The notes under the pieces are model-generated. The model saw only the letters and a program-made list of their open reading frames with translations. It ran no database searches and was not told where the DNA came from. Source: Candidatus Binatia bacterium (GTDB lineage: Bacteria > Desulfobacterota > Binatia > HRBIN30). From it: a DNA stretch of 64,000 nucleotides. Within the stretch, counting starts at the first letter, position 1. Every line of letters starts with the position of its first letter. The stretch lies in assembly GCA_026415395.1 (NCBI GenBank), contig JAOAHD010000002.1:1-64000 (forward strand), in the 5' to 3' direction. This document shows, piece by piece, positions 6,034-58,690 of the stretch. The translations under genes and the position numbers were made by a program.

Positions 6034-6078
6034 GCTCCGCGAGCGAAAGGTGACAGGATACCAGCAATGGAGGACGTT

Positions 6079-8192: not shown

Positions 8193-8249
8193 CGCTGCCT
8201 CCAAGCACCAGCGAGCGCGATCGTTGCAGCCCCGCCCGAATCTTCCCGG

Positions 8250-8939
8250 TCAGGCAGCGGCGTATTGCTGCGCGGCGAATTCCCAGTTGAGGAGTTTATC
8301 GATCACCGCGTTCACGTAATCGGCGCGGCGGTTCTGGTAGTCCAGATAATACGCGTGCTCCCACACGTCGATGGTGAGCAACGGCCGCTTGCCCATGGTG
8401 ATCGGCGTATCGGCGTTGGCCGTGGCGATCACCTCGAGGCGATCGCCAGTTTTCACCAGCCAAGCCCAGCCACTGCCGAACTGACCGATGGCCGCTTGTG
8501 CAAATTTGCTGCGGAAGTTGTCGAACCCACCGAAGTCTTTTTCGAGGTGCTCGAACAGCTTGCCGCTCGGCTTGCCCCCGCCTTTGGGGCTGAGGCTACG
8601 CCAGTAAAACGTATGGTTCCACGCTTGCGCCGCATTGTTGAAGATGGCCACTTTGTCGGGTTTTCCTGCCGTTTGTTGCACGATGCGCTCCAACCCAAGG
8701 TCGGCAAGTTCAGTGCCGGCAATTAGCTTGTTCAAGTTTTCCACGTACGCGCGGTGGTGCTTCCCGTAATGGAACGAAATCGTTTGTGCAGAAATCGTGG
8801 GTGCCAGGGCGTTTTCCTCCCAAGGCAACGGTGGCAGAGCAATCGGCGCCTGTTCGGCGGATACCTGGCGGACCCAAACGGTTGCCGCAGTCGCTACCCC
8901 GAGTTTGAGCACTGCTCGACGCGAGAACATAGCGGCCAT
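8250..8939 (-). CDS. sodB: Fe-type superoxide dismutase with Tat signal
   Basis: This enzyme removes superoxide by dismutation. The core matches iron SOD: FHYGKHH near residues 56-62, [14 protein letters not shown] (the FeSOD form with FNNAAQ), FGSGWAWLV, and the metal-binding [11 protein letters not shown]. The N-terminus reads [14 protein letters not shown] and then a hydrophobic stretch ending VSA|EQA, a twin-arginine signal. The enzyme would therefore be folded with its metal and exported, which is uncommon for SodB (normally cytosolic). The start at 8939 is set by a strong purine-rich site (GGAGGGG); the frame continues upstream without a second site. A peroxiredoxin gene lies just upstream on the same strand, giving a superoxide-then-peroxide pair. 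Confidence 0.92.
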
Positions 8940-42232: not shown

Positions 42233-42931
42233 GTGAGACTTCCGGTGCGCGCGGTAACGTTGGATTTCGGTGGCACGCTCGATGGACCTGACCACTGGCG
42301 CGATCGCTTCTGGCGTGTGTATGACGCGGCGGGCTTGCACCCGGAGAAGGAAGACTTCGAGCGAGCTTTTGGTTTCGCCACCCGTGCCGCCTATGCGGAA
42401 CCGAGGCTGCGCACCGTCGGACTGGTTGGCTTGGTGCGCTTCCACGTCCAGGAGCAGATGCGTGAGCTGGGATGGCCGACGAGCAATGCTGTGGAGGACA
42501 TTGTGCACCGGTTCGTGCAGGATACGCGCAAAGCTCTGCACCGACACGCGGCATTGGTGCGGCGCTGGAAAGAGCGCGTGCGGTTGGGCGTGATCTCCAA
42601 CTTTTACGGAAACCTGGCGGCGATTCTCGCGGAGGAAGGATTGGCGTCGTTGTTTCCTGTGGTGATCGACTCGGCTCTGGTGGGTATGCGCAAGCCCGAG
42701 CGTGCGATCTTCGAACTGGCGTGCGCGCAGCTGGAATGTGAGCCGGAGGAAGTCTTGCATGTGGGCGATTCGCTCGAACACGATGTGTTGGGTGCGTGCG
42801 GTGCTGGGATGTACGCGGCGTGGTTGAATTCTCGAGCTGGGCGAGATGCGGGCTGTTCGTTGCCCGCAACGGCTTTCCCCATCGCGCGCCTCGCTGACCT
42901 CGATGAGTGCTTGTCGTGCAAGCCGCAATAA
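42233..42931 (+). CDS. HAD-like hydrolase, first gene of the headgroup cluster
   Basis: A 232-residue HAD protein starting at a GTG (42233) after GGGGGA. Motif I reads LDFGGTLDG: nucleophile Asp11 is present but the second Asp (position 13) is Gly. Motif II is GVISNFYGN, motif III the Lys in MRKPERAIF, and motif IV VGDSLEHDVLGACGAGM. The DFGGT form occurs in some HAD proteins and may slow dephosphorylation. It overlaps the nucleotidyltransferase gene by 25 bases. It may dephosphorylate a sugar or cyclitol phosphate in this pathway. Confidence 0.83.
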   Translation: MRLPVRAVTLDFGGTLDGPDHWRDRFWRVYDAAGLHPEKEDFERAFGFATRAAYAEPRLRTVGLVGLVRFHVQEQMRELGWPTSNAVEDIVHRFVQDTRKALHRHAALVRRWKERVRLGVISNFYGNLAAILAEEGLASLFPVVIDSALVGMRKPERAIFELACAQLECEPEEVLHVGDSLEHDVLGACGAGMYAAWLNSRAGRDAGCSLPATAFPIARLADLDECLSCKPQ

Positions 42932-43629
42932 TTGCTGCCGGTAACGGCGAGCGCCTGCGCCAAGCAGGCTGGGTGTTGCCGAAGCCGCTGGTGCCGGTGG
43001 CGGGTCGGCCGCTCGTCGAGTATGTCTTGCGCGGTCTCGAGCACGCCGGGGTGCGCAGAGTGGTGATGGCACTGAACACGCGGGGTTTCCCTGTCGAGCG
43101 CTACTGCCGGCGGCATTGGCCGCGGCTCGATTTTTCCTTCGTGTATCGCGACACGCCAAATTCCATGGAAAGTTTGTTCGCACTCGAGCCGCTGATTGCC
43201 GGCGATCCCTTCGTGCTCATGACCGCGGATACGCTCATCGCGCCGTCGCGCCTGGGAGAGTTTTGCACTCGGGTGCGAGAGTTCGGGCCCGAGGCCGTGG
43301 TGCTCGGGGTGACCGCGTTCGTGGACGACGAAAAGCCGCTTTGGGTCGAGTCCGATGATACCGCGCGGGTGCAAGCACTGGGGAGTGCGGTGCGGGGCAG
43401 GGGTTGGGTGACCGCGGGTGTCTACGCCATGCCGCGAAGCGTGTTTCGCCACGTAGCCGCCGCGCGCGCTGCCGGCGCTGCGGCGCTGCGCGATTTCCTC
43501 GCCTTGCTGTTGCAGGCGGGTGTGGAGATGCGCGCGCTGCCTGTGGGTGTGTGTGTGGACGTCGATCGCCCACAAGATTTAGCCGTCGCCGCCCGATTCG
43601 TCGCCGAAGAGTACGCGAGCGATGCCTGA
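42907..43629 (+). CDS. Sugar/alcohol-phosphate nucleotidyltransferase
   Basis: A 240-residue nucleotidyltransferase resembling inositol-1-phosphate cytidylyltransferase and RfbA/MobA-like enzymes. The nucleotide loop IIAAGNGERLRQAG has Gly12, Gly14 and Arg16; the Lys of LPKPL is Lys26. Metal Asp is Asp108 (LMTADTL), with the C-terminal VDVDRPQDL. It should couple a phosphorylated alcohol or sugar to CTP or UTP. Given the CDP-alcohol phosphotransferase downstream, CTP is favoured. A GTG at 42916 is an alternative start. It overlaps the ATP-grasp gene by 8 bases. Confidence 0.82.
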   Translation: MLVVQAAIIAAGNGERLRQAGWVLPKPLVPVAGRPLVEYVLRGLEHAGVRRVVMALNTRGFPVERYCRRHWPRLDFSFVYRDTPNSMESLFALEPLIAGDPFVLMTADTLIAPSRLGEFCTRVREFGPEAVVLGVTAFVDDEKPLWVESDDTARVQALGSAVRGRGWVTAGVYAMPRSVFRHVAAARAAGAAALRDFLALLLQAGVEMRALPVGVCVDVDRPQDLAVAARFVAEEYASDA

Positions 43630-44431
43630 TTTTTTGTGCGTTTTGCGGGAGCCGGAATACTCGCCGGGCAAAGTCGAAGACGACGCCGCGATCTTGTTAA
43701 GTGTGGCCAGCGTGCTGCGCCGCGAGCAGTACGTGGTCGACGTGCTCGATCCCCGCGCACGGCGCTGGCCGGAGTTGCCGCGCCGCACGGTCGTGTTGAA
43801 TATGGCGCAAGGGGCGGGTGCACTTTCACGCCTGGAAGAGTGGGAGCAGCTCGGGATTCGAGTGATCAATTCCGTTGCTGCGGTGCGCAACTGTTACCGT
43901 GCGCGCACTCACGAGCTGTTTCGGCGTAGCGGCGTATCGTCGCCGCTGGCCACTGTGGTCTCCACGGCTGCGGAGGAGTTACCGGCTTGGCTGCACGAAG
44001 TCCCGGCCGTTTGGGTCAAGCGTGGCGACGTGCATGCCATGACCGCAGCCGACGTGCAATTTGCCGTAGGTGCGCAGCAGGTGCGCAAAGCGCTTGCACA
44101 AATGCGCTCGCGGGGAATCGCCACTGCGGTCGTGCAACAGCACGTGACCGGCCGAACGGTGAAGTTTTACGCAGTGGCCGATCAGTTCTTCCATGTCGTG
44201 GGCGAGGCCAACGGCAGCCGTGCGACCTGGGAGCGGCGCCTCACGGCCATAGCGCGTCGTGCAGCGCAGGTTGCCGGCTTGGAAGTATTTGGCGGAGATG
44301 GTGTGGTGGATGAAACCGGTACATGTCATTTGATTGACTTGAACGACTGGCCTAGCTACGCACCGTGCCGCCCCGCAGCGGCGCAAGCGATTGCGGCGTA
44401 CGCGCGCGTAGAAAGGGCAAAGGTCGCGTGA
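43622..44431 (+). CDS. ATP-grasp ligase/kinase-like protein
   Basis: A 269-residue protein of the ATP-grasp fold. The N-terminal ~90 residues form the Rossmann-like domain. Lys133 in VWVKRGD is the ATP-contacting Lys, VVQQHVTGRTVKFYAV (170-185) gives the triphosphate-side strand, and metal ligands are Asp226, Asp239 and Asn241 in HLIDLNDWPSY. RimK-like ligases and inositol polyphosphate kinases (ITPK) share these features. It could add an amino acid to an amine or phosphorylate a cyclitol. Its place between nucleotidyltransferase and aminotransferase suggests use on the headgroup. The last bases overlap the next GTG (GTGA). Confidence 0.75.
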   Translation: MPDFLCVLREPEYSPGKVEDDAAILLSVASVLRREQYVVDVLDPRARRWPELPRRTVVLNMAQGAGALSRLEEWEQLGIRVINSVAAVRNCYRARTHELFRRSGVSSPLATVVSTAAEELPAWLHEVPAVWVKRGDVHAMTAADVQFAVGAQQVRKALAQMRSRGIATAVVQQHVTGRTVKFYAVADQFFHVVGEANGSRATWERRLTAIARRAAQVAGLEVFGGDGVVDETGTCHLIDLNDWPSYAPCRPAAAQAIAAYARVERAKVA

Positions 44432-45792
44432 AACCCTCGTCACTGTCGAACGCCTCGTTGGAAGCCGAGCGCTCGGTTCCTGGGTTGCGAAGCCGGGCTT
44501 TGTGTGCGGAGGAGCAGCAGTACCTCGCCCCTGGGGTTCAGCGCATCGCCCAGCTCTCGGAGCTTGCGCTGAGTCATGGGGAGGGATGTCGCCTCGTTGA
44601 CGTCGACGGCAACCGCTATCTCGACTTCTTCGCGGGTGTGGGGGTGGCCAGTTTGGGGCATGGCCATCCGCGGTTTACCCGCCAAGTGGCGGAACAACTC
44701 GGGCGGCTCGTGGTTGGCAGCTTCACCAGTCGCGCACGGCTGCGATTGCTCCGCTTGCTCGCGCAGCTCGCTCCGCTGCCGAGGCCGCGCACGCAGTTAT
44801 ACAGCGGCGGGGCAGAGGCGGTGGAGGCCGCCATTCGTTTGGCCAAGGCGTACACAAAGAAGTTCGAGGTGGTGGGTTTTTGGGGCGGCTTTCATGGGAA
44901 GACCGGCGGTGTCCTCGGCCTCATTGGCGACACCTGGAAACAGCAGTGGGGCCCACTTCCGGCAGGGACTCACTTGGTCCCGTATGCCGACTGCTATCGC
45001 TGCCCGTTCAAACTCGAGTACCCGCGCTGCGGGCTGTTCTGCTTGGAATTTGCGCGGCAGTCCATTCGCACCTCGACCGCCGGTGCCGTGGCAGCGGTTG
45101 CCGTTGAGCCCATGCAGGGCACGGCGGGCAATGTCGTTCCGCCGCCCGAGTTTTTGCCGGGGGTGGCGGAGATTGCACGGGAACTCGGGGCGGTGCTGAT
45201 TTGCGACGAAATGATCACTGGGTTTGGCCGCACCGGAAAAATGTTCGGCTGCCAGCACACGGGCACGGAGCCCGACGTGATCACGGTTGGAAAAGGGTTT
45301 GGCAACGGCTTCCCGGTCAGCGGACTGATCGCTCGCGAGGAACTCACGCAGGCGGAGCCATTTTCAAAGCCCAGTGCATCTTCGTCGAGCTACGGCGGCA
45401 ACCCGTTGGCAGCGAGCGCCGCGCTGGCCACGGTGGAAACGATCGTGGAGGAAAACCTTGTGGACAACGCCGCACGCGTGGGCGGTGTGCTGCTCGAGGC
45501 ACTGCGCGCTCTCCAAGAGAAGTATGAGTTCATCGGCGACGTGCGCGGTGTGGGGCTCTTGATCGGCCTCGATCTGGTGAAGGACCGGCGCAGTAAAGAA
45601 CCGCTGCCCGCTGCGGTGACCGAGCAATTGTTCCTTGCTGCACTGCGGCGCGGGTTGCTGCTCATGGGCTACTTCTCGCGCGTGCGCATCAACCCGCCGC
45701 TGATTCTGAGCGAGAGCGAAGCTTTGGAGGGAGCGGCGATTCTGGACGAAGCGTGCGCCGAAATCGCTCCACTGGTGCGAGGGCTCGCCTGA
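44428..45792 (+). CDS. Class III PLP aminotransferase
   Basis: A 454-residue aminotransferase. Motifs are the phosphate-binding YSGGAEAVEAAIRLAK (125-140), Asp260 in LICDEMITGFGRTG, and Schiff-base Lys289 in VITVGKGFGNG. A Cys cluster CYRCPFKLEYPRCGLFC (Cys189, 192, 201, 205) is seen in many class III aminotransferases. Glu/amine donors are typical (4-aminobutyrate, ornithine or taurine type). The GTG start at 44428 overlaps the previous stop. In context it may aminate a ketone or aldehyde carbon made by the next gene's oxidoreductase. Confidence 0.9.
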   Translation: MKPSSLSNASLEAERSVPGLRSRALCAEEQQYLAPGVQRIAQLSELALSHGEGCRLVDVDGNRYLDFFAGVGVASLGHGHPRFTRQVAEQLGRLVVGSFTSRARLRLLRLLAQLAPLPRPRTQLYSGGAEAVEAAIRLAKAYTKKFEVVGFWGGFHGKTGGVLGLIGDTWKQQWGPLPAGTHLVPYADCYRCPFKLEYPRCGLFCLEFARQSIRTSTAGAVAAVAVEPMQGTAGNVVPPPEFLPGVAEIARELGAVLICDEMITGFGRTGKMFGCQHTGTEPDVITVGKGFGNGFPVSGLIAREELTQAEPFSKPSASSSSYGGNPLAASAALATVETIVEENLVDNAARVGGVLLEALRALQEKYEFIGDVRGVGLLIGLDLVKDRRSKEPLPAAVTEQLFLAALRRGLLLMGYFSRVRINPPLILSESEALEGAAILDEACAEIAPLVRGLA

Positions 45793-46811
45793 TGCGGGTG
45801 TGGCGCGGGGCGATCGTGGGTTTTGGTGAGGTGGCCCTTCACGGGCACTTACCGGCGTGGCGACGCCAGCGCGATTTCCGTTTAGTCGCTGTTTGTGATG
45901 CCAATCCGGAGCGGCGGGCACTGGCGGCGAGCGTGTTGCCCGAGGCGCGGGTGTATTGGACGCTCGACGAATTATTGGAGCAGGAGCGCTTGGACTTCGT
46001 CGACATTGCCACTCCCCCGGCGTGCCACGCTGTCCAAGTGGAAGCTGCGGCGCGCGCTGGAGTGCACGTGCTGTGCGAGAAGCCGCTGACGACCTCGGTT
46101 GCTGAGTTCGTGCATCTGCAGAAGTGTGTGCGCGCTGCCGGCGTGGTGCTGCACACGGTGCACAACTGGCGGTTTTCCGAAGCCTTTCAGGCGATGCGTG
46201 CGGCGATGAGCGAAGAACGCTTGGGGCCGGTGCGCCACATAGCGGTGAAAACAATTCGCCAGGGCTGCGCCCCGGGTGCCGGCGGCCTGTGGCGGCTCGA
46301 CCACGAGGTTGCCGGTGGGGGGATTTTGGTGGACCATGGCTGGCACACGTTTTACTTGCTTGCGGATCTTGCGGGCGAGGTGCCCGAAGCCGTGTCGGCT
46401 GCCGTCGGGCGCCGGCGGTACACCGATGTCGCGGTCGAGGACACGGCTCAGTGCCGCGTGGTGTTCCCCTCGGCGACGGCGGAAATCGAGCTCACGTGGG
46501 CGGGTGCAGCGCGGCAAACTTCGTGGGCGGTGCAGGCGGAACATGGCGAGGTTCGTGTGGAGAACGGGCAGCTCAGCGTACGCGGCAAGCGCGGGCTGCG
46601 CCGGGCCGAACTCCCCTCCCCCGCGGAGAGCTCGCACCATCCCCATTGGTTCGATGGCGTGATTGCGGAATTTCGAGCTGCGCTGGAGCACCCCGAGCTC
46701 GGGCGGGACAACCTTTCTGAAGCGGGCCTGTGCGTGGTGCTGTTGCAACAAGCCTATCGTTCGGCCAAAGCCCAGGGGCGCGAATTCAAGGTGGCGCTAC
46801 CGAACGTATGA
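45792..46811 (+). CDS. Gfo/Idh/MocA family NAD(P)-dependent oxidoreductase
   Basis: A 339-residue oxidoreductase with an N-terminal Rossmann domain (GAIVGFGEVALHGHLPAW), the CEKPLTT motif (Lys is catalytic), and GGGILVDHGWHTFYLLAD containing the His of the active site. Family members oxidise sugars and inositols at one hydroxyl. With the adjacent aminotransferase it could turn a cyclitol or sugar hydroxyl into an amine. The ATG overlaps the previous stop (TGATG). Confidence 0.9.
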   Translation: MRVWRGAIVGFGEVALHGHLPAWRRQRDFRLVAVCDANPERRALAASVLPEARVYWTLDELLEQERLDFVDIATPPACHAVQVEAAARAGVHVLCEKPLTTSVAEFVHLQKCVRAAGVVLHTVHNWRFSEAFQAMRAAMSEERLGPVRHIAVKTIRQGCAPGAGGLWRLDHEVAGGGILVDHGWHTFYLLADLAGEVPEAVSAAVGRRRYTDVAVEDTAQCRVVFPSATAEIELTWAGAARQTSWAVQAEHGEVRVENGQLSVRGKRGLRRAELPSPAESSHHPHWFDGVIAEFRAALEHPELGRDNLSEAGLCVVLLQQAYRSAKAQGREFKVALPNV

Positions 46812-48085
46812 GCGAGCCAAGGGCAGACCGAACGAAGTTGCTCGTGTTGCCGCCACACGCTGCGAGCTTCCTGCGCGTTGCCGGGCTCACGGTGATGGAG
46901 CGCGTGCTGCTCGCTGCGCAGCGGGCTGGCTTTGCTGAGATCGTGGTGTGGACACCCGAGCCCTGCCCGCGGTTGGCGACCATCTTGCGTGCGCACTCGC
47001 GCTTGCGCGGCGTGCAGCTCACCGCCGAGCCGCCTTTCGGTGACGACCCATGGGTGGTCGTGCGGAGCGATGTGGTCGTGTCGCCGACGGTGTTGCTGCG
47101 CATCCGTGCGGAGAGTGGCGGGGGCGCCGTGCGCTGGTGCGTCGACGGGCTAGTTGTGGCGGTGAGCGGCTCGGCCAGGCAGCTATTCCCTGACAGCGGC
47201 ACCGATGCCGTGGCCGCCTGGGCGGATGCCATGCGACTGGCGGACACCGAGTGCTCATTGAGCACCGAGGTTGCCGTGCCGGTGGCGTCACCGACTTCCG
47301 CGCAGCAGGCAGAGCGGGCTTTGTGCCGCCAGATTTGGCGTGCGGCTGCGGCCACCGATGGCGTCCTTGCGCATTGGTTCGATCGTCGCTTGTCGCTGGC
47401 CATCAGCCGGCGGTTGGCGCGGTTTCCCTGGCTCAGGCCGAATCACGTGACTGCTGCGGGCACCGCGCTGGGTTTGTGTGCGGCTTGGCTCTTTAGTCAC
47501 GGGAGTTTCACCGGCGGGGTTGCCGCGGCGGTGTTGTTTTGGCTGGCGTGCGTGCTCGATGGTTGCGATGGCGAACTGGCGCGCCTCACATTCCGGGATT
47601 CGGAGTGGGGAAAATTCTTCGACGTCGCCACGGACAACCTGGTGCACGCTGCGATTTTCCTCGGTCTCGGCTTGGGTTTCTTACGTTCCCATCCGCATGC
47701 TCCGCACGGGTGGTTGGTGTTGCTGTTGCTCGGTGGTTTCGCGTCGGCAGGGCTGGCGAGCTACGTGTTCCTCAATCGAGCGTGCAGTGCCGCGGTGGCA
47801 GGCGCTGCCACTCATTCGTGGCGCGGACGATTGGAGCGCTTTTTGGCTGCGCTGATGAATCGCGATTTCTCTTACCTGTTGTTGCTGCTGGCTCTGGCGG
47901 ACCGCTTGCACTGGTTTCTTTGGGGTGCGGCTTTCGGTTCGTACGCCGTCGCTGCCGCCGCGCTCGCACTCTCGTTCGAGTCGTTCTGTGGCCCTGGCGC
48001 GTCAGGCGCCTTGTCGGAGGAAACGCCGGCGCCTGCCGGGACCGCAGCCGAGGCGCCGATCGCCTCGTGGCCGCAAAGCGAGTAA
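46808..48085 (+). CDS. CDP-alcohol phosphotransferase fused to a degenerate nucleotidyltransferase domain
   Basis: A 425-residue two-domain membrane protein. Residues about 8-165 resemble the nucleotidyltransferase half of archaeal inositol-1-P cytidylyltransferase/DIPPS enzymes. However, the loop that should read GxGxRL...PK reads LPPHAASFLRVAGLTVMERV, with no Gly-rich loop or Lys. Residues 190-410 carry six or more helices and an intact motif DGCDGELAR...GKFFDVATD (Asp251, Asp254, Ala258-Arg259, Gly268, Asp272, Asp276). This domain should transfer the phosphoalcohol from CDP-alcohol to a lipid or alcohol acceptor. It overlaps the upstream gene as ATGA and follows a separate intact nucleotidyltransferase in the operon. 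Confidence 0.85.
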   Translation: MSEPRADRTKLLVLPPHAASFLRVAGLTVMERVLLAAQRAGFAEIVVWTPEPCPRLATILRAHSRLRGVQLTAEPPFGDDPWVVVRSDVVVSPTVLLRIRAESGGGAVRWCVDGLVVAVSGSARQLFPDSGTDAVAAWADAMRLADTECSLSTEVAVPVASPTSAQQAERALCRQIWRAAAATDGVLAHWFDRRLSLAISRRLARFPWLRPNHVTAAGTALGLCAAWLFSHGSFTGGVAAAVLFWLACVLDGCDGELARLTFRDSEWGKFFDVATDNLVHAAIFLGLGLGFLRSHPHAPHGWLVLLLLGGFASAGLASYVFLNRACSAAVAGAATHSWRGRLERFLAALMNRDFSYLLLLLALADRLHWFLWGAAFGSYAVAAAALALSFESFCGPGASGALSEETPAPAGTAAEAPIASWPQSE

Positions 48086-48202: not shown

Positions 48203-49186
48203 ATGCGGTGGCTCGAGCGCGGTCTCGCATGTTTGGGGGCAGCGTTGTTGGGGGGCTTGGTGTACCGGCTCGGATGGCGAGATTTAGTTGCGAACCTCTC
48301 CCTCGTCGGTTGGGGGCTGCTGTTGGTTCTAGCGCAAGAAATTCTCGCTTTTGCGGCGAACACTCTGGGTTGGCGGTGGGCGTTTCGTCGCAACACCAGT
48401 GCGCCGCGGTTTACCGAACTCCTGGCGGCGCGCGTGGCTGGCGATGCGTTCAACTACGTGACGCCGACAGCGTCGCTCGGAGGCGAGTTCGTGCGCTTGC
48501 AGATGCTCGCAGCCGCGCATGGGCGGGTTCCGCTCGCCGCATCGCTGAGTGTGGCGAAGCTGGCCCAGACGCTTGGCCAAGTTGTCTTCATCCTGGTGGG
48601 GTTGGCCGTCGTCGCCGTGTACGTTTCCTTGCCCGAGGCAATTCAGTGGGCAGCGTGGCTCACCTTGGGTGGGTTTGTCGGAGTGTGCGCGGGCCTCGTG
48701 TGGTGGCAACGGCGCGGCATGTTTGCTCCTGCTTTGCTTGCGTTGGAGAAGTTCGGCTGGTTGCAGGGGCCGGCTTGGCGCAGCCGGATATTGCGACTGG
48801 ACGAGGAAATTCGTGCCTTGCATCGCGATGGCTGGCGGTTTGGGCTGTCGGTGCTTGCCTTTGCCGTGGGCTGGGCATTAGGCACGGTGGAGATGTACAT
48901 CGTGCTTTGGCTGCTCGACGGATCGCCCAGTTGGATGCTGGCGCTGGCCATCGAAGTGTTTTCGGCCACGCTCGATGGCATTCTGTTTTTCGTGCCGGCG
49001 AAGTTGGGAACGCAAGAGGGTGGCAAGGTGCTTATCTTTTCTTTGCTGGGGCTCGATCCCGCAAAGGGTTTGGCTGCAGGGGTACTCCGGCGGGTGCGGG
49101 AGCTGTTTTGGGCGGCGGTGGGTTTGTCTCTGTGGTGGTGGAAGCAATGGGGCCGCGCCGGCGTGGCGTCAGCCGCAGCCCGCTGA
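48203..49186 (+). CDS. hpnL: HpnL-like membrane protein (lysylphosphatidylglycerol synthase TM family)
   Basis: A 327-residue protein with about eight transmembrane helices. The C-terminal FVPAKLGTQEGGKVLIFSLLG and LAAGVLRRVRELFWAAVG segments are the hallmark of the LPG_synthase_TM/UPF0104 family, to which HpnL belongs. These proteins are thought to translocate or bind lipids. It sits 12 bases upstream of hpnK, which supports the HpnL reading. The 117 bases after the phosphotransferase gene could hold an internal promoter. Confidence 0.78.
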   Translation: MRWLERGLACLGAALLGGLVYRLGWRDLVANLSLVGWGLLLVLAQEILAFAANTLGWRWAFRRNTSAPRFTELLAARVAGDAFNYVTPTASLGGEFVRLQMLAAAHGRVPLAASLSVAKLAQTLGQVVFILVGLAVVAVYVSLPEAIQWAAWLTLGGFVGVCAGLVWWQRRGMFAPALLALEKFGWLQGPAWRSRILRLDEEIRALHRDGWRFGLSVLAFAVGWALGTVEMYIVLWLLDGSPSWMLALAIEVFSATLDGILFFVPAKLGTQEGGKVLIFSLLGLDPAKGLAAGVLRRVRELFWAAVGLSLWWWKQWGRAGVASAAAR

Positions 49187-49198
49187 CGTAGAGCAGCG

Positions 49199-50083
49199 AT
49201 GGGCGAGCCGCATCGGCACCAACGGCAGCGCAGGCTCATTGTGTCGGCCGACGATTTTGGCCTTTCTCCCGGGGTCAATCGCGGCATTGTGCAAGCGCAC
49301 GAGCAAGGACTACTGACGAACACAAGCTTGATGGTCAACGGTGCTGCGGTTGCCGAGGCCGTCGAGCTTGCCCGCGCCCATCCCCGCCTAGGAGTCGGCC
49401 TCCATCTCGTGTTGCTGCAAGGATACTCCACGTTGCCGCCGCAACAAATTCCGGGTTTGGTCGACAGTCGCGGCGAGTTTTCTCGCCAGCCGGTGCGGAC
49501 CGGTTTACGGTACTTCTTCGTGCGCGCCTTGCACGCGCAGCTGGAACGGGAAATTCGCGCGCAAGTGGAGAAGTTCTTGGCCACCGGGTTGCGGCTCACC
49601 CATGTGGATGGGCACCTCAACATCCACATGCACCCCACGGTGCTGCAAATCCTCGTGCGCATCGCCCCCGAATACGGCATTGTGGCGCTGCGATTGCCGC
49701 GGGAGCCGCTGGGGGTCACCTTGCGCGCGAGCTGGTGGCAGTGGTGCCGCAAGATCGCCGAAGCTGTGACTTTTCGCGCGCTGACCGCCCATGCGCGTCC
49801 GCGTCTGGATGGGGCCGGCCTGCGGTACCCAGATTGGATGTTCGGGTTGCACCAATCCGGGCGCATGACCGAACCGTACTTGGCAGCGATTCTGCGTCGC
49901 TTGCCACCGGGGACGACGGAAGTGTACACGCACGCCTCGTTCGTCGATGAAGAGGCCAAACATTGGCGCCCGCGGCACTACGACTGCGAGGGTGAGTTGC
50001 GGGCACTCATAAGCCCGCGGCTGCGGGCCTTGATCGAGGCGGCGGGTATCGAGCTGATCAGCTACGCGCAGTTGCGCGACTGA
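49199..50083 (+). CDS. hpnK: HpnK-like YdjC-family deacetylase (hopanoid glycan)
   Basis: A 294-residue member of the YdjC/ChbG fold with the metal motif IVSADDFGLSPGVN (Asp18/Asp19) and His139, His143, His145 in HVDGHLNIHMHPTV. The sequence around LGVGLHLVLLQG is typical of HpnK. HpnK removes the acetyl group from N-acetylglucosaminyl-bacteriohopanetetrol, giving the glucosaminyl form used later by HpnJ. It directly follows hpnL. Its stop lies 26 bases inside the convergent EamA gene. Confidence 0.87.
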   Translation: MGEPHRHQRQRRLIVSADDFGLSPGVNRGIVQAHEQGLLTNTSLMVNGAAVAEAVELARAHPRLGVGLHLVLLQGYSTLPPQQIPGLVDSRGEFSRQPVRTGLRYFFVRALHAQLEREIRAQVEKFLATGLRLTHVDGHLNIHMHPTVLQILVRIAPEYGIVALRLPREPLGVTLRASWWQWCRKIAEAVTFRALTAHARPRLDGAGLRYPDWMFGLHQSGRMTEPYLAAILRRLPPGTTEVYTHASFVDEEAKHWRPRHYDCEGELRALISPRLRALIEAAGIELISYAQLRD

Positions 50084-50921
50084 GGTTGGTGTGCCTTTCG
50101 GTGGCGGTGGCTAACAAGGCGGTGCCGCCGAGAGCGAGGGCGAAAGCCAGCACTCGCAGGCCTGCTGCGGTGCCGGCACGGGGCAAACCTTCGTGGAATA
50201 CCAAGATCCCGGCGAGAATCGGCACGATGTCCGAAAGCACGGAGAAAATCGGTACGACAACGACGCCGCGGCCATTTTGCAGGGCCGACTGCATGAGCGC
50301 AAACCCGGCGATGTTACTCCCCAGCGTAAGCCACAGTGCGCTGCTTCGCACCGCTTGGTGCAGGGAGGGTGCGGTGGCCAAGAGCTTGGCGAACACTGCC
50401 GCCATACCGAGGATCAGGCCAGAGGCGATGCTCCGACCGATAGGCCGCCCGGGGCTGCGGTCGAGGGCGATTGCCAGCAGAGCGAGGCCCGTAGTCGAAA
50501 AGAAAAAAGCGACCAAGTCGATTCGTGCTGGAACGAAGGAGGCTTCCTCGTTGAGCGACAAACCGAGGCACACAAGCCCGGCAGTGATGGCCAAGCCCCC
50601 CAGCCATTCGCGCACGCCGGCATGCTCGCCCAACGCGAACACGGAGAGCAAGAGGAACAGCACGAGGCCGCCCGTGAGGGCGGTGTGCACGAGCGACAAC
50701 GGCGCGAACCGGAGCATGGTGAAGTACAACGCGTAGCCCGCAATTTGCAGGCCGAGCCCCGCAAGCCAACGAGGGTCGCGCAAAAACGCCCGCCAGGCTT
50801 GCCAGCGAAACCCCGAGCCCAGGGAGGGCAACTCTGCCGCGCGGATCTTCATGACGTAGAGGCCGATGCTGAGGGCGCCGCTGGCGACGGCCGACATGGC
50901 AATGGCAAGCTCGAAGGGCAT
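50058..50921 (-). CDS. EamA/DMT-family transporter
   Basis: A 287-residue protein with ten predicted transmembrane helices in two EamA halves. Duplicated features are SLVHTALTGGLVLFLLLSVFALGEH (first half) and FSVLSDIVPILAGILVFHEGLP (second). The family exports metabolites or drugs. Its position between hpnJ and hpnK suggests a role in the lipid system, which is inference only. The 3' ends of this gene and hpnK overlap by 26 bases. Confidence 0.85.
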   Translation of the reverse strand: MPFELAIAMSAVASGALSIGLYVMKIRAAELPSLGSGFRWQAWRAFLRDPRWLAGLGLQIAGYALYFTMLRFAPLSLVHTALTGGLVLFLLLSVFALGEHAGVREWLGGLAITAGLVCLGLSLNEEASFVPARIDLVAFFFSTTGLALLAIALDRSPGRPIGRSIASGLILGMAAVFAKLLATAPSLHQAVRSSALWLTLGSNIAGFALMQSALQNGRGVVVVPIFSVLSDIVPILAGILVFHEGLPRAGTAAGLRVLAFALALGGTALLATATERHTNLSRATARS

Positions 50922-51001: not shown

Positions 51002-52444
51002 TTACGCTGTTGCCGTCGGCTCGCGGCGAGTTGCAAAGAAGGAAAAAAACTCGCGTGCCTCGCGTAAGCGCCGCACCATCACGCGGCGGTCCTTCAGCAT
51101 GTCGCGCAAGATGCGCAGGATCGGGCGCGGCCGCAAATAAAACGCCTTGTAGAAGTGCTCGAGTGCCTCCTCCATTTGTTCCGAGGAGAGCTCCGGATAG
51201 TTCAGCACCGCTTGCTGGATGCCGTGGTCTTCCACCAGGTCGTCTTCCTTGTCGGGAGGTAGCCAACCTTTTTCCTTGGCTTGCCGGTACAATTCCGTGC
51301 CTGGATAAGGCGCAGCCAGCGAGACTTGCAAGCTGTACGGGTCGAGCTCCTTGGCGAACTCCAGCGTGCGCGCGATAGTCTCCTCGGTTTCGCCGGGGAG
51401 GCCAATAATGAACGTACCGTGAACCAGGATGCCGAGCTTGTGGCAATCGCGCATGAACTCGCGTGCACGATCGATGCGGGTGCCTTTCCGGATGTTGTTC
51501 AGGATGTGTTGGTTGCCGGTTTCAAATCCGACGAGCAGGAGCCGCAGGCCGTTGTCCTTGAGGACCTTGAGGGTTTCGTACGGCACATTGGCCTTGGCGT
51601 TGCACGACCAAGTGATGCCGAGCTTCCCTAACCCGCGGGCAATTTCTTCGGCGCGTGGGCGATCATCGGTGAACGTGTCGTCGTCGAAGAAGAATTCCCG
51701 CACTTGAGGAAAGATCTCCTTGGCGTGAGCCATTTCCGCAATCACGTGCTCGGCGCTGCGCGTACGGTAAACGTGACCAGCGATCGTTTGCGGCCAAAGG
51801 CAAAAGGTGCATTTGCTCCGGCAGCCTCGCCCTGTGTACAGCGACACATAAGGGTGCTGCAGGTAGCCAATATAGTAGTTCTCGATCGTGAGGTGCTTCT
51901 TGTAGACATCGACCACGAACGGGAACGCATCGAGATCGTGGATCGGGGGGCGCGTGCCGGTGCGTACAATCGAGCCGTCCTCCGCACGATAGGCAACACC
52001 GGCAACCTCGCGATACGGCCTGCCTTCGGCAACTTCACGGATGACGTAGTCGAACTCGCCGAGGGTCACGAAGTCCACCGCGGGCGCTTGCTGCAACGTT
52101 TGCTCGGGCAACACCATCGTGTGCGCGCCGACGAATGCGACTTCCAACCCTGGATACGCGGCTTTTAAGGCAGCGGCTACTTTGGCATCGGAACGCAGCG
52201 ACGGAGTGGAAGTGTGGATGACCACCAGATCGTGCCCGGCCGCGCGCGCGATCACGTCTTCGGTGGTGAGGCCGTGAGGCGGAGCATCGATCAAGGTGCT
52301 GTCCGGCAACAGCGCTGCGGCTTGTGCGAGCCACGTGGGATACCAGAACGAGCGCACCTCGCGCCGCGCTTGGTAGCGCGAGCCGGCGCCGCCATCGAAG
52401 TTATCGAAGGACGGCGGGTTCAAAAACAATGTGCTTTTGGCCAC
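51002..52444 (-). CDS. hpnJ: Radical SAM protein HpnJ (hopanoid cyclitol ether formation)
   Basis: A 480-residue protein. A B12-binding-like domain at about 1-150 precedes the radical SAM domain with CxxxCxxC at Cys208, Cys212 and Cys215 (GRGCRSKCTFCLWPQT). The opening FLNPPSFDNFDGGAGSRYQA and WYPTWLAQ are diagnostic of HpnJ. HpnJ converts the glucosamine attached to bacteriohopanetetrol into the five-membered cyclitol ether. The GTG start is preceded by AGAGGGTG. It is in the same direction as the EamA gene, which follows about 80 bases downstream. Confidence 0.93.
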   Translation of the reverse strand: MAKSTLFLNPPSFDNFDGGAGSRYQARREVRSFWYPTWLAQAAALLPDSTLIDAPPHGLTTEDVIARAAGHDLVVIHTSTPSLRSDAKVAAALKAAYPGLEVAFVGAHTMVLPEQTLQQAPAVDFVTLGEFDYVIREVAEGRPYREVAGVAYRAEDGSIVRTGTRPPIHDLDAFPFVVDVYKKHLTIENYYIGYLQHPYVSLYTGRGCRSKCTFCLWPQTIAGHVYRTRSAEHVIAEMAHAKEIFPQVREFFFDDDTFTDDRPRAEEIARGLGKLGITWSCNAKANVPYETLKVLKDNGLRLLLVGFETGNQHILNNIRKGTRIDRAREFMRDCHKLGILVHGTFIIGLPGETEETIARTLEFAKELDPYSLQVSLAAPYPGTELYRQAKEKGWLPPDKEDDLVEDHGIQQAVLNYPELSSEQMEEALEHFYKAFYLRPRPILRILRDMLKDRRVMVRRLREAREFFSFFATRREPTATA

Positions 52445-55743: not shown

Positions 55744-56052
55744 GGTGCTCCATCAATCGCATGAGTGCAACAATGAGCGTCGATGACTCTGCATGCCCCC
55801 TCCGAAATGGGCACCGAGCGGCCAACCGGCCTGCGGTCGTGGTGCCCGTAGCCGCGGTCATCGAGTTGGCGAACGGGTCCCTCAGTGCAGGCGAACGGCG
55901 GGGCTGATCCACGGCGCTGGCTCCGTTTGGCGTTCGGGCCAGGCAACATCGACCCGGCGGCGAACTGGGGGTCAGCAGCGTGGGAACCTTTTCCAGGTTG
56001 TTGGCTCCAATTGGTTGTGAGAAAGCGATTACAAGAGAGGAGGAAGACACGC
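55744..56052. other. Divergent promoter region
   Basis: About 300 bases between the kelch gene and the efflux operon. It should hold promoters for both. The ribosome-binding site AGAGGAGGA lies at 56035-56043 for the next gene. I see no operator palindrome or riboswitch. Confidence 0.35.
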
Positions 56053-56238
56053 ATGACGACGGAAAGGGCCGTGCGGTTGCTCGCGGGAACGTTGGTCGGG
56101 ATCAGTTTGCTTCTCGGCTACTTCGTGCATCCCGCCTGGTTCTTGTTGGCGGCGTTCGTTTCGCTGAACTTGGTCCAATCGTCGTTTACCGGCTTTTGCC
56201 CAGCAGAAAAGATCCTGCGCCGCCTGGGCACGAAATAG
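56053..56238 (+). CDS. DUF2892 small membrane protein
   Basis: A 61-residue protein starting after AGAGGAGG. Two transmembrane helices (GTLVGISLLLGYFVHPAWFL, LLAAFVSLNLVQSSFTGFC) and the ending CPAEKILRRLG match DUF2892/YgaP-C-like proteins. These are often linked to sulfur-transfer or metal-handling genes. It heads the tolC-MFP-RND operon, 8 bases before tolC. Confidence 0.88.
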   Translation: MTTERAVRLLAGTLVGISLLLGYFVHPAWFLLAAFVSLNLVQSSFTGFCPAEKILRRLGTK

Positions 56239-56246
56239 AGGCGACG

Positions 56247-57602
56247 ATGCGCAGCGTGTCCGCTTGGATCGTACTCCTGGGCTTTGTGCTCGCGGGGAGG
56301 ATCGGTGCGGAGGAACCGCCACAGCCGCCGCCTGCGGGCTGGTCGTTGCGCGAGGTGATTGCCTTGGCCGTGCAACGCAATCCCGATCTGGCGGGAGCAC
56401 GAGCACGGGCGGAAGCGGCGCTGGCGCGCGTTGGCGAGGCGGAATCCGCGTTTTTCCCGCAACTGGGTGCGCGGATCACGTTTGCGCGCACCGACGATCC
56501 GTCGCGTGCCTTTGGCATGATCCTGTCGCAGCGGCGCTTCACGTTTAACACCAACTTCAATCGGCCGGGACCGACGCAAGACGTGCGCCCTGAGGTGCTT
56601 GCTGCTGTCCCGCTGTTTCACGGCGGGCAGGACTACTTCCGGCGGCAAGCAGCCCAGGCCGGGGCACGGGCGGCACGAGCCGAAGAGGTCGCGAGCCGCA
56701 ACGCCGTCATCGACGCCGCTGCCCAAGCATACTACGCATTGCTGGCTGCACCGGAGCAGGTTGCGGTGATGCAGGCTTCTCTTTCTGCGGTGCGAAGCGC
56801 GCTAGAGAACGCCCGGGCACGCTTTGCTGCGGGCGCGGCGCTGAAATCAGACGTGCTGTCCTTAGAAGCTCGCCTCCAGGCAACGGAGGCTGCCGCCGTG
56901 CGGGCCCGCAATGCTGTGGAGCTTGCCCGCTCGGCATTGCGGCTGGTGTTGGCTCTACCGGCAACGGAAGAGGTTGCCGTCAGCCCGGCAGCCGAGGTCG
57001 GGCCGACGCTGCCAGCAAGCTTTTCCGATGCCCTGGCGCGGGCCCGCACCCAACGCGCCGAGCTGGTTGCGATGCGGGAACTTGTGGCGGCACGGGAGGC
57101 GGAAGTGGCTGCTGAGCGCGCAGCATTTTTGCCGCGGGTGGACCTCATCGGTTCCTACGGCCAAAACGCCACGGATCTGCGTTTATCGTCGAGCCGCGAC
57201 AACTGGTTCTTCGGCGCAACGGCGGAAGTGGATCTATTCTCCGGCTTCCGCACCCTCCAGCGCTTGCGGGCCGCAGAGCACAACCTCGAAGAAGCCCGTC
57301 AGCTCGAGGCCAAAACCCAAGCGGTGATCGAACACGAGGTGCGCGTCGCCTTCTCGAACTGGGAAGAAGCGCGGCAACGGCTGGAGGCTTCGGAAGCAGC
57401 GGTCGCTGCTGCCGAAGAGGCGTTGCGGCTGGTGACCGAGCAATACCGTGCCGGTACCGTCATTGTTACCCGCTATCTCGAGGCCGAAGCTGCCCGTACC
57501 GAGGCGCGTTCGCAGGCGGTGGCGGCGCGCTACGAGCTTAACCGCAGTGCCGCCACATTGCGCAAAGCGATGGGCAGTTGGGAGGAGGAGATGGAACCAT
57601 GA
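56247..57602 (+). CDS. tolC: Outer-membrane efflux protein (TolC family)
   Basis: A 451-residue TolC-type protein: signal peptide (FVLAGRIGA|EEP), then two repeats of long coiled-coil helices (about 40-220 and 235-440), with EVIALAVQRNPDLAGARARAEAAL and FPQLGARI at the start of the first. It forms the outer-membrane exit duct for the RND pump. It is coupled to the next gene by an ATGA overlap (57599-57602). Confidence 0.93.
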   Translation: MRSVSAWIVLLGFVLAGRIGAEEPPQPPPAGWSLREVIALAVQRNPDLAGARARAEAALARVGEAESAFFPQLGARITFARTDDPSRAFGMILSQRRFTFNTNFNRPGPTQDVRPEVLAAVPLFHGGQDYFRRQAAQAGARAARAEEVASRNAVIDAAAQAYYALLAAPEQVAVMQASLSAVRSALENARARFAAGAALKSDVLSLEARLQATEAAAVRARNAVELARSALRLVLALPATEEVAVSPAAEVGPTLPASFSDALARARTQRAELVAMRELVAAREAEVAAERAAFLPRVDLIGSYGQNATDLRLSSSRDNWFFGATAEVDLFSGFRTLQRLRAAEHNLEEARQLEAKTQAVIEHEVRVAFSNWEEARQRLEASEAAVAAAEEALRLVTEQYRAGTVIVTRYLEAEAARTEARSQAVAARYELNRSAATLRKAMGSWEEEMEP

Positions 57603-58684
57603 GTGCAGAGCATACCCGTTGGGTGTCGCCGCGCTTGCTCGGCGCGGTCGGGTCGATCGTCGGCTTGGCTGTGTTGCTCTTGTATCTCTCCGGGGCCATT
57701 GGCGGTCACAAAGTGGAACCCGGCACCCGACCGCTTCCCCCGGCGGTGCTCGAAGGTACCGATTCCGTGGTGACGGTGCGGGAAGTCCCCGACATCATCG
57801 ATTGGCCCGGCGCGGTGCGCTCCCGGCTCGTCGCCAACGTGGCGCCGCGCGTGCTTGCCCGTGTGGCGGAAGTTCACGTGCGCATGGGATCTCCGGTCAA
57901 AGTTGGCGAGCCGCTCGTGACCCTCGATGCTGCCGAGCTGGCTGCCAAACGGGAGCAGGCCCGCGCAGCACTCGCGGCGGCAGAGGCAGAGGCGCAACAT
58001 GCGGCGCAAGAGGAGCGCAGGGTGCGCGGACTTTTCGAGCAGAACGCGGCCACTAAGCAAGACCTCGATGCCATCATTGCTCGCAGTCGGGCCGCATCCG
58101 CTGCTCTGCAGCGCGCTCGCGACGCTCTAGCGGAAGCCGAGGTGGCCGTGAGCGAAACCGTGTTGCGCGCACCGTTTGACGGGGTCATTGCCTCCCGCTG
58201 GGCAGATCCCGGTGATCTGGCGGTGCCGGGGCAACCGCTGGTGGTCGTGCACGACCCTGCCACGCTGCGCTTCGAAGCCGCCATTGGCGAGTCTTGCAGT
58301 GCGGCGCTGGCCCTCGGGGCAACGCTGCGCGTGCGCTTAGACCAACCGGCTGAGGAGCTACTTGCGCGCCTCGAAGAGATTTCGCCGCAAGCCGAACCCA
58401 CCACGCGCACGGTGCGGGTGAAGCTTGGCCTGCCCGAGGCTCCCGAGGTTCGTCCCGGCGCCTACGGTGTGGTGCGCGTGCCCTGCGGGCAACACCAGGC
58501 CGCACTCGTGCCCATCGCCGCGCTCCAGCGGCGCGGGCAGCTCGAATTCGTGTACGTACGAACCGACGGCGGTGTCGTCATGCGGCAAGTTCGCTCCGGG
58601 AAAACTTACGGGGACCAAGTTGAAATTCTTTCCGGCGTGGCGCGCGGAGAGCGCGTGGTGATCCCGCGCAAGGCCCAGGGGTGA
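57599..58684 (+). CDS. RND efflux periplasmic adapter (membrane fusion protein)
   Basis: A 361-residue HlyD/AcrA-like protein. An N-terminal helix (about 15-35), a lipoyl half-motif (AEVHVRMGSPVKVGEPLVTLD), a coiled-coil hairpin (about 115-195) and then APFDGVIASRWADPGDLAVPGQPL and a beta-barrel domain follow. It links the inner-membrane RND pump to TolC. A 6-base gap separates it from the RND gene. Confidence 0.93.
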   Translation: MSAEHTRWVSPRLLGAVGSIVGLAVLLLYLSGAIGGHKVEPGTRPLPPAVLEGTDSVVTVREVPDIIDWPGAVRSRLVANVAPRVLARVAEVHVRMGSPVKVGEPLVTLDAAELAAKREQARAALAAAEAEAQHAAQEERRVRGLFEQNAATKQDLDAIIARSRAASAALQRARDALAEAEVAVSETVLRAPFDGVIASRWADPGDLAVPGQPLVVVHDPATLRFEAAIGESCSAALALGATLRVRLDQPAEELLARLEEISPQAEPTTRTVRVKLGLPEAPEVRPGAYGVVRVPCGQHQAALVPIAALQRRGQLEFVYVRTDGGVVMRQVRSGKTYGDQVEILSGVARGERVVIPRKAQG

Positions 58685-58690
58685 GGGAAG

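Follow-up and report, generated by a model that had tools for sequence, protein, structure and literature searches.

Gut Bacteroidetes, specifically Bacteroides vulgatus and Prevotella, have been described to carry a putative alternative cluster for inositol lipids, and B. vulgatus, where this cluster was placed, makes PI-dihydroceramide (Heaver et al., 2022, PMC9246714). As outlined there, the cluster is recognized by a nucleotidyltransferase (NT), a CDP-alcohol phosphotransferase (CDPAP) and a HAD gene found together, with myo-inositol-phosphate synthase (MIPS) in direct vicinity, usually adjacent; it also has a LPG-synthase-like membrane protein and is described without aminotransferase or dehydrogenase, and the terms "ATP-grasp" and "aminotransferase" do not occur in the main text of the paper. 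The BT_1522-1526 operon of B. thetaiotaomicron, as described, shares MIPS and an inositol-branch CDPAP with the system studied here, differs by its PIP-DAG intermediate, AUR1-like gene, PgpA-type phosphatase and GtrA protein, and has no ATP-grasp or nucleotidyltransferase gene. The di-myo-inositol phosphate pathway of hyperthermophiles (IPCT/DIPPS) and AF2299 have the same CTP:inositol-1-phosphate cytidylyltransferase fold and belong to the same phosphotransferase branch, whereas in our locus a gene of its own encodes the cytidylyltransferase, and there would be extra oxidation, amination and ATP-grasp steps. In streptomycin-type aminocyclitol biosynthesis, too, a Gfo/Idh enzyme oxidizes inositol, with transamination and phosphorylation as further steps, but the aminotransferase is of the DegT type and the product is a soluble antibiotic. 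In the CpgD route to ceramide diphosphoglycerate of Caulobacter, as far as described (PMC12275187), a cytidylyltransferase with conserved R16/K26/Asp likewise activates a small phosphate that goes into a lipid headgroup, in this case phosphoglycerate, and "CDP-alcohol" is not found in the text.

The locus analyzed here belongs to a Candidatus Binatia bacterium and is contained in a stretch of 64,000 nucleotides, the window. We have confirmed six consecutive genes on the + strand, listed here with their neighbours:

42233..42931, + strand, HAD-family phosphohydrolase (motif I D-x-G-G-T; Pfam PF00702/PF13419)
42907..43629, + strand, NT, predicted CTP:(amino)inositol-phosphate cytidylyltransferase (Pfam PF12804/PF00483; structure model)
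43622..44431, + strand, ATP-grasp protein, predicted cyclitol kinase (fold from AlphaFold model; profile matches)
44428..45792, + strand, class III PLP aminotransferase, predicted inosose aminotransferase (Pfam PF00202, 309 bits)
45792..46811, + strand, Gfo/Idh/MocA oxidoreductase, predicted inositol (cyclitol) dehydrogenase (Pfam PF01408/PF22725)
46808..48085, + strand, CDPAP with a degenerate nucleotidyltransferase-like N-domain (Pfam PF01066)
48203..49186, + strand, flippase-like LPG_synthase_TM protein, HpnL-like (Pfam PF03706)
49199..50083, + strand, HpnK (YdjC-type deacetylase), context gene of unsure membership (TIGR03473, 329 bits, above cut-off)
51002..52444, opposite (-) strand, HpnJ radical SAM, hopanoid context gene (TIGR03471, 760 bits, above cut-off)

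The first-pass annotation had described six genes of one strand, each overlapping the next by 1 to 25 bases, and this was borne out, with overlaps from 5' to 3' of 25, 8, 4, 1 and 4 bases when the starts of the HAD, aminotransferase, Gfo/Idh and CDPAP genes are chosen within longer ORFs. The flippase-like gene also belongs to the unit, and in the window's order (the taxonomic rank) it is followed by hpnK. All the cluster genes except the ATP-grasp one (5/6) passed the curated Pfam cut-off. The window has NT, CDPAP and HAD together, as in the Bacteroidetes alternative cluster (B. vulgatus being compared by its description), while MIPS was not found in direct vicinity in the window genome, where it is located at C2:326348, 280 kb from the cluster. 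The annotation knew of no described pathway with this exact set, which is only half correct: a putative, uncharacterised relative had been published (PMC9246714), and the homologous Bacteroidota loci examined here also contain the ATP-grasp gene. The six-gene set looks like an aminated relative of that cluster. It is fairly probable that it makes an aminocyclitol (amino-deoxy-inositol) phosphate headgroup that is activated with CTP and attached to a membrane lipid, and so represents the CDP-inositol route proposed for gut Bacteroidetes with an amination added.

The six-gene cluster is real and deeply conserved. Among 20 regions around CDPAP matches in genomes of the same phylum, eight had all six genes and four had five, so that the set is not due to chance. 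In a sample of 145 genomes of the class the ATP-grasp gene appeared in eight other members of the window's order, and the search for the same six genes elsewhere, proposed in the first-pass annotation, found them kept in all eight, the CDPAP of one (L147) being inside a fused ORF. Related gene sets are present in at least six other phyla, and the gene order of the window, with MIPS added after CDPAP, was found in Elusimicrobia (L104) and Nitrospirae (L101). Over 80 loci, aminotransferase and dehydrogenase were both present in 19 and both missing in 57, the aminotransferase was alone in four (one cut by a contig end) and the dehydrogenase in none. Some loci fit the proposed reading less well: in several Binataceae-type loci (L157, L158, L160-L163, L064) 0.6 to 4 kb separate the dehydrogenase and the aminotransferase, in others (L037-L039, L066, L100, L109) the dehydrogenase was not found in the fetched stretch, L078 has HAD, NT and ATP-grasp without aminotransferase, and L159 has the ATP-grasp gene and a piece of CDPAP, with a HAD match of only 22 residues, and lacks NT and aminotransferase. 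Gene fusions join NT and ATP-grasp in four genomes (L074, L093, L105, L131), CDPAP and flippase in L147, of the same family as the window, flippase and HAD in L074, and CDPAP and HAD in L128. The core of Phocaeicola sartorii consists of NT, ATP-grasp, CDPAP, flippase-like, HAD and MIPS genes, without aminotransferase or dehydrogenase, and resembles the Bacteroidetes alternative cluster; in the loci lacking the aminotransferase the CDPAP has 296-366 aa (54 loci measured).

The neighbourhood raises the possibility of hopanoid decoration, in which a phospho-aminocyclitol or an intermediate would be put on bacteriohopanetetrol, with HpnK and HpnJ, in the carriers that make hopanoids; to our knowledge no phosphorylated hopanoids have been found. 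The gene hpnK adjoins the cluster in all eight same-order carriers fetched and hpnJ is within the stretch in four of them, in both L053 and L059 HpnJ immediately precedes HAD, and in L054 this place is taken by a radical SAM + DUF3463 gene, at the position of the HpnH match of that genome. Tracking of hopanoid genes, which the annotation had proposed to test, was strong within the class, with HpnH in 47 of 51 carriers versus 35 of 94 non-carriers (a co-occurrence confounded by phylogeny) and within 2.6-15 kb of the cluster in at least 12 of the 51, but HpnH gave no match in 7 of 23 named carrier genomes with the aminotransferase. In addition, HpnI-K-J already have a described role in the BHT cyclitol ether (PMC12583986), and HpnI is encoded elsewhere in the window genome. 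When 30 carrier genomes were compared, 16 with HpnH and 14 without, the serine palmitoyltransferase model gave no match above 355 bits in the former or in the window genome, while matches were far stronger in 13 of the 14 lacking HpnH, five of them exceeding the cut-off, which is a point of difference between the Bacteroidetes alternative cluster and that of the window. All in all, decoration of hopanoids is rather unlikely.

The evidence for a cyclitol comes mostly from MIPS, NT and CDPAP. Of the 80 loci, 53 had MIPS within the fetched stretch of at most about 10 kb, nine of them with the aminotransferase and spread over five phyla (one, L056, by a weak 49-bit match). Genome-wide, MIPS was present in 20 of 23 carriers with the aminotransferase, the three where it was not found going against the proposed reading, and in 6 of 7 other carriers (hand-picked from 57); in the class sample the figures were 46 of 51 carriers versus 26 of 94 non-carriers. 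The AlphaFold model of NT (pLDDT 93.8) had as top PDB match 4jd0, an inositol-1-phosphate CTP transferase, by Foldseek (E 1.7e-18) and also by VIA-align (Z 29.0, rmsd 2.5, 234 residues). R16, K26 and D108 of NT are invariant (19 rows) and correspond, matched by number and motif, to R16, K26 and D112, named as critical for the inositol-1-phosphate cytidylyltransferase (PMC12275187). The IPCT/DIPPS equivalog NF041135, a model that describes the fused Thermococcales protein, gave 43.8 bits versus a cut-off of 580. CDPAP matched PF01066 with 45.9 bits (cut-off 22), as the annotation had assigned it, and, judged by its sequence, is of the inositol branch: its best NCBIfam models were IPCT/DIPPS, PIPS and archaetidylinositol-phosphate synthase, all below cut-off, and its PDB profile matches were AF2299 (3.4e-41), IPCT/DIPPS (2.1e-27) and a PI-phosphate synthase fusion (9.6e-21). 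The window protein carries the D-x2-DG-x2-AR-x8-G-x3-D-x3-D motif, which fits in only 51 of 113 homologues, with D251, D254, G255, A258, R259, G268 and D272 invariant (20 rows); its N-domain was not recognized as a nucleotidyltransferase by Pfam. Together with the MlaE, ABC ATPase and MlaD lipid-transport genes inside a homologous Ignavibacteriales cluster (L063), these comparisons support what the annotation had proposed, a putative amino-cyclitol headgroup, its CTP-dependent activation and its loading onto lipid, as do the co-travel of aminotransferase and dehydrogenase, the Phocaeicola core, the fusions and the residue contrasts given below.

The two enzymes that would modify the ring leave some room for an amino-sugar instead, if their substrate were a sugar phosphate or a nucleotide sugar and the product a phospho-aminosugar lipid, with the pathway otherwise unchanged as far as the CDP-sugar. 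The best NCBIfam model for Gfo/Idh was inositol 2-dehydrogenase (IolG, TIGR04380) with 80.6 bits versus 355, a cut-off that tests membership in IolG, working like IolG being a separate question. Its best-scoring solved relatives were a generic oxidoreductase and glucose-fructose oxidoreductase, and the UDP-GlcNAc 3-dehydrogenase model gave 57.3 bits and was the top match for the L104 protein; E96-K97-P98, D181 and H185 are invariant (13 rows). By sequence, NT is at least as similar to hexose-1-phosphate nucleotidyltransferases. The aminotransferase, 46-85% identical to 13 homologues and with Lys289 invariant, is of class III, its closest relatives being amino-acid racemases and enzymes of the GABA/ornithine type, and known inosose aminotransferases belong to another family. 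Still, the linkage of MIPS to loci with the aminotransferase, the structure of NT and the branch of CDPAP speak against a sugar, and we consider it unlikely.

The first-pass annotation had the ATP-grasp protein possibly attaching an amino acid or phosphate, and of these the phosphate is favoured, although the nearest folds are still ligases. At E 0.01 Pfam returned nothing for this gene, and its RimK/MptN matches were weak (TIGR00768, RimK-type ligase, 18.3 bits versus 143.4); the fold comes instead from the AlphaFold model (pLDDT 94.3), aligned by VIA-align with RimK (Z 21.5, rmsd 3.5, 252 residues) and LysX (Z 21.4, rmsd 2.8, 246 residues), most structural neighbours being ligases. The PDB profile search gave the ligase PsnB (8.3e-10) and ITPK1 (2e-4 over 50 positions); Pfam Ins134_P3_kin had matches in 2 of 14 members (best E 0.0034), a comparison in which the window protein itself matched ATPgrasp_ST alone (0.022). 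A ligase coupling an amino acid to the amino group just introduced, to give an aminoacyl-aminocyclitol lipid, would agree with these matches. However, the gene is kept in the 57 loci without aminotransferase or dehydrogenase in the stretch, is fused to NT, and has Lys181 in 120 of 123 homologues where PsnB has Arg in the alignment, a position at which ITPK presumably has Lys; for these reasons a kinase fits better. B. vulgatus, with the alternative cluster, is moreover described to yield phosphoinositol ceramide (Heaver et al., PMC9246714), and we regard a ligase as improbable. Residue 172 of the ATP-grasp protein is Gln in 34/34 rows with the aminotransferase and 5/57 others, and residue 169 of NT is Thr in 32/32 and 3/52 (raw counts ignoring kinship, for two columns picked out of 24 listed), a pattern that would follow from both enzymes acting on the modified cyclitol; elsewhere in that list the rows of Ignavibacteriota/Bdellovibrionota partly side with the group without aminotransferase.

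A soluble product (a di-inositol-phosphate-like osmolyte, or a secreted aminocyclitol, the membrane enzyme joining polar molecules as a diester) is very improbable given the fusion of the flippase-like gene to CDPAP, the MlaE/ABC/MlaD genes inside one cluster and the described tie of the Bacteroidetes relative to inositol sphingolipids (PMC9246714), despite the closeness of CDPAP and NT to IPCT/DIPPS osmolyte enzymes and a same-phylum genome with one ORF (L050) matched by both the NT and the CDPAP profile, as in IPCT/DIPPS.

From families, linkage, fusions and predicted folds, all of them observed, we infer every substrate, the order of the steps and the acceptor of the aminocyclitol-lipid route as follows. 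MIPS would supply inositol phosphate, Gfo/Idh would form an inosose by oxidizing one of the ring hydroxyls, the aminotransferase would aminate the inosose, and the ATP-grasp kinase would add the phosphate that NT then activates with CTP to give CDP-aminocyclitol, from which CDPAP would move phospho-aminocyclitol onto a lipid alcohol. The HAD protein, with D-x-G-G-T in 109 of 115 homologues and D11, K154, D179 and D184 invariant (16 rows), although its motif is without the usual second Asp, may strip a phosphate either early, which would release inositol, or last, from an intermediate already linked to the lipid; that HAD is fused to a membrane partner in two cases speaks for the late role. The HpnL-like protein, with 161 bits for TIGR03476 (HpnL, cut-off 195.65) and homologues in the Phocaeicola (76) and Ignavibacteriales (90.4) loci, probably carries the product across the inner membrane. 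The split between HpnH and serine palmitoyltransferase suggests that the lipid acceptor may differ by lineage, being ceramide, diacylglycerol or hopanoid. The product is probably a lipid with an amino-sugar-alcohol headgroup, apparently unreported.

The six plus-strand genes of the cluster, coding for a HAD protein, a nucleotidyltransferase (NT), an ATP-grasp protein, a class III aminotransferase (AT3), a Gfo/Idh/MocA oxidoreductase (GFO) and a CDP-alcohol phosphotransferase (CDPAP), overlap successively by 25, 8, 4, 1 and 4 bases. HAD, NT, AT3, GFO and CDPAP have Pfam support in the window. The ATP-grasp gene gave no Pfam match at E 0.01; its AlphaFold model (pLDDT 94.3) clearly adopts the ATP-grasp fold (RimK, Z 21.5, rmsd 3.5, 252 residues). 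Downstream on the same strand come a flippase-like LPG_synthase_TM gene and then hpnK, with hpnJ on the opposite strand. Between hpnK and hpnJ there is an EamA/DMT-like membrane protein gene (window 50058-50921, minus strand), kept in the loci L144, L145 and L146. Located 3.5 kb past hpnJ (window 55980-61990) are TolC-like and RND adaptor genes and then an ORF of 1099 aa that probably encodes an RND pump; TolC-family genes were also detected downstream of the cluster in L053 and L054. The genome (3.69 Mb, 25 contigs) contains one full-length CDPAP match and a weak partial one (E 7.9e-4).

We have found the same arrangement in other genomes. Among 20 regions fetched around CDPAP matches in the same phylum, all six genes were present in eight and five of them in four. 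In the class sample, the ATP-grasp gene appeared in 51 of 145 genomes, and HAD, NT, ATP-grasp, AT3, GFO, CDPAP, the flippase-like gene and HpnK were kept in all eight other carriers from the taxonomic order of the window. When named genomes were scanned with the ATP-grasp alignment, 529 relatives were confirmed; the best 80 of them, a biased sample, were retained. These best 80 of 529 span Thermodesulfobacteriota, Nitrospirota, Elusimicrobiota, Verrucomicrobiota, Bdellovibrionota, Ignavibacteriota and Bacteroidota among others, and the closest named relative among them is Bacterium HR30 (HRbin30), which shares the seven-gene order and has 65% identity in the ATP-grasp protein. With the overlaps read and the order recurring in same-phylum, class and named genomes, the six-gene cluster described in the first-pass annotation is confirmed. 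A chance run of ORFs is rejected because the gene order is kept across phyla, and a plasmid-borne set is not supported, tblastn of CDPAP against the plasmid collection having returned no match. Some loci depart from the full set: L078 has HAD, NT and ATP-grasp but no AT3, and L159:8312-9513 is apparently reduced to ATP-grasp and a CDPAP piece, with a 22-residue HAD match and with NT and AT3 absent from the stretch. A B12-binding radical SAM gene beside a divergent CDPAP recurs in Binataceae-type loci (including L100:5713-7038 and L064:5410-6741), as does a small HAD-type phosphatase gene after AT3.

Within the best 80 of the 529 loci, AT3 and GFO occur together in 19, AT3 alone in four, GFO alone in none and neither in 57. 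Bacteroidota loci that lack AT3 and GFO carry NT, ATP-grasp, CDPAP and HAD, with the flippase-like gene in some and myo-inositol-phosphate synthase (MIPS) mostly in the stretch; five AT3-bearing carriers (L063, L071, L097, L114 and L124) fall inside the clade of the Bacteroidota loci. MIPS was detected in the stretch of 53 of these best 80 loci, nine of them with AT3 (one, L056, being a weak 49-bit match). L104 (Elusimicrobia) and L101 (Nitrospirae) have the gene order of the window with MIPS directly after it. Over whole genomes, MIPS is encoded in 20 of the 23 AT3-bearing carriers and in six of seven hand-picked others, and in the window genome it lies 280 kb from the cluster. The class sample gave 46 of 51 carriers with MIPS vs 26 of 94 non-carriers (Fisher p 1e-13, kinship ignored).

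There is a published cluster of similar composition. Inositol lipids are described as relatively rare in bacteria in the available text of Heaver et al. (PMC9246714), where Bacteroides vulgatus is reported to make phosphoinositol dihydroceramide and a putative alternative inositol-lipid cluster was located near MIPS in this species, its enzymes being left unconfirmed. The plain gene set of the Bacteroidota loci, i.e., the core without AT3 and GFO, resembles the cluster as presented there, and the gaps in its locus-tag numbering would leave room for one gene of the ATP-grasp and one of the flippase type. The window cluster is set apart from it, because MIPS is not adjacent and two enzymes are extra. 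The amino-cyclitol lipid proposed in the first pass is the best reading, and it can now be linked to inositol and to a published, uncharacterized relative.

The predicted structure of NT points in the same direction. Its top match is the inositol-1-phosphate CTP transferase of T. maritima (Foldseek E 1.7e-18; Z 29.0, rmsd 2.5, 234 residues) and the second a phosphonate cytidylyltransferase (Z 26.9), while by sequence comparison alone NT is equally near hexose-phosphate enzymes. Residues R16, K26 and D108 are invariant over 19 NT rows; in the inositol-1-phosphate CTP transferase R16, K26 and D112 are critical according to the available text of PMC12275187. The nearest solved relatives of CDPAP are AF2299, IPCT/DIPPS and phosphatidylinositol-phosphate synthases, and of 113 homologues no more than 51 show the canonical CDP-AP motif. 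Model scores place GFO and AT3 among generic enzymes of their families, and the profile search of the PDB with AT3 retrieved generic class III enzymes only.

Several proteins of the cluster appear fused to each other:
L074, L093, L105 and L131: NT fused to the ATP-grasp protein
L074: flippase-like protein fused to HAD
L128: CDPAP fused to HAD
L147: CDPAP and flippase-like protein as a single 765-aa protein
An ORF of L050 matched by both NT and CDPAP profiles looks like the IPCT/DIPPS type and was left out of this count. The fusions of HAD, once to CDPAP and once to the flippase-like protein, suggest that it works at the membrane. Motif I of HAD reads D-x-G-G-T in 109 of 115 homologues, i.e., the nucleophile is kept and the second catalytic Asp is replaced by Gly; in the window protein (42233-42931) D17, six residues past the nucleophile, is an invariant Asp. 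Because CDPAP and the flippase-like protein are fused in L147, and because genes for MlaE, an ABC ATPase and MlaD separate NT from ATP-grasp in the Ignavibacteriales locus L063:7422-9943, the product of the cluster is most likely a lipid.

We read the ATP-grasp protein as a putative kinase, because the gene is present at loci without nearby amine-making genes, because it is fused to NT in four Bacteroidota genomes and because Lys181 is found in 120 of 123 rows at the position where PsnB has Arg. The rival is a ligase. Distant relatives of the protein include ligases and inositol phosphate kinases, with the ligases ranking first, and ITPK was not among the 50 VIA-align matches listed for the model, which excludes nothing. 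Residue 172 of the ATP-grasp protein is Gln in 34 of 34 AT3-bearing vs five of 57 AT3-lacking rows, and residue 169 of NT is Thr in 32 of 32 vs three of 52; both are two of 24 listed columns, counted with kinship ignored. The contrasts also hold in the Ignavibacteriota/Bdellovibrionota rows (7/7 and 5/5, respectively), rows that in some other listed columns group partly with the AT3-lacking ones. Both enzymes thus look as if they met a modified ring.

To consider the acceptor lipid we used 30 carrier genomes, all 23 AT3-bearing ones of the 80 loci plus seven hand-picked from the other 57. The hopanoid marker HpnH was matched in 16 (one a fragment below cut-off) and gave no match in 14. With the serine-palmitoyltransferase (SPT) model, 13 of the 14 carriers without HpnH scored 475-738 bits, five of them above the cut-off of 640, and L124 gave no match; the 16 with HpnH did not exceed 355 bits, and in none of the 30 genomes was an HpnH match found together with a score above 355. 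Eight of the 13 strong matches lie at 475-501 bits, under the cut-off, and as they stand well apart from the 355-bit group we infer that they may also be serine palmitoyltransferases. The best-scoring CDPAP of each locus was 388-426 aa in 13 of 13 loci with HpnH, whereas all 14 loci without it had one of 303-346 aa; in three more with HpnH (L056, L062 and L066) CDPAP was not found in the stretch. The last Asp of the motif is not at the usual spacing in the aligned short-type proteins of Bacteroidota and Ignavibacteriota (e.g., L063:12109-13044 and L082:10836-11783).

A clean split of CDPAP types by HpnH is nevertheless rejected. The long type is alone in 11 of the 13 loci, and the two Spartobacteria (L055 and L058, about 5200-8560), which have HpnH, carry besides it a short-type ORF of 298-304 aa (stop to stop) near the cluster, directly preceding HAD. 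It is possible that the acceptor switches between carriers, ceramide in some and hopanoid or diacylglycerol in others, in two sets that also differ by phylum. For the window organism a ceramide acceptor is not supported, the sole match to the BioF/Kbl/SPT models being BioF (486 bits, above the bioF cut-off, and 322 bits to the SPT model).

The cluster as simply a part of the hopanoid pathway is rejected as well, with seven of the 23 AT3-bearing carriers lacking an HpnH match. Hopanoid genes are frequent neighbors: hpnK flanks the cluster in 8/8 carriers from the taxonomic order of the window, HpnJ precedes HAD in L053 and L059, an HpnH-type gene does so in L054, and at least 12 of the 51 class carriers have HpnH within 2.6-15 kb (a minimum, with distances taken by eye from listed rows); the seven regions labeled f5 were selected for a nearby HpnH. 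HpnI, HpnK and HpnJ have an established role of their own in the BHT cyclitol ether (available text of PMC12583986) and HpnI is encoded in the window genome, so that a hopanoid product does not follow from proximity to hpn genes alone.

The tree of the ATP-grasp protein (91 rows, midpoint root) has only two switches of the AT3 label. The AT3-lacking Bacteroidota group with the AT3-bearing Ignavibacteriota and relatives, and for this reason the tree, which is midpoint-rooted and has several long branches, would fit a scenario in which Bacteroidota lost the amination steps. A wider reading would have a single portable amino-inositol headgroup cassette, loaded on ceramide in Ignavibacteriota/Bdellovibrionota and on hopanoid in Binatota/Thermodesulfobacteriota and others, with CDPAP adapted accordingly (about 300-350 vs 390-430 aa) and the plain Bacteroides version as a trimmed descendant. 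We consider it improbable, the more so because the Spartobacteria have HpnH and yet a short CDPAP before HAD.

Among the open-licence papers listed by our searches we did not find the exact gene set, an aminoinositol lipid, an amino-inositol lipid pathway or later work on the Bacteroidetes alternative cluster; the available text of a paper on Black Sea sphingolipids mentions inositol and hexosamine 0 times each. The reading is directly testable because carriers of both versions exist as named strains, the plain one in Sphingobacterium (e.g., S. detergens, L086) and Phocaeicola and the aminated one in Desulfoferrobacter suflitae (L053). If it is true, there would be a zwitterionic amino-inositol phospholipid in many uncultured phyla, and the Bacteroidetes cluster would turn out to include a kinase of the ATP-grasp fold as well as a flippase-like protein, both overlooked so far. 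The cassette would also let the movement of a headgroup between sphingolipids, hopanoids and glycerolipids be studied.
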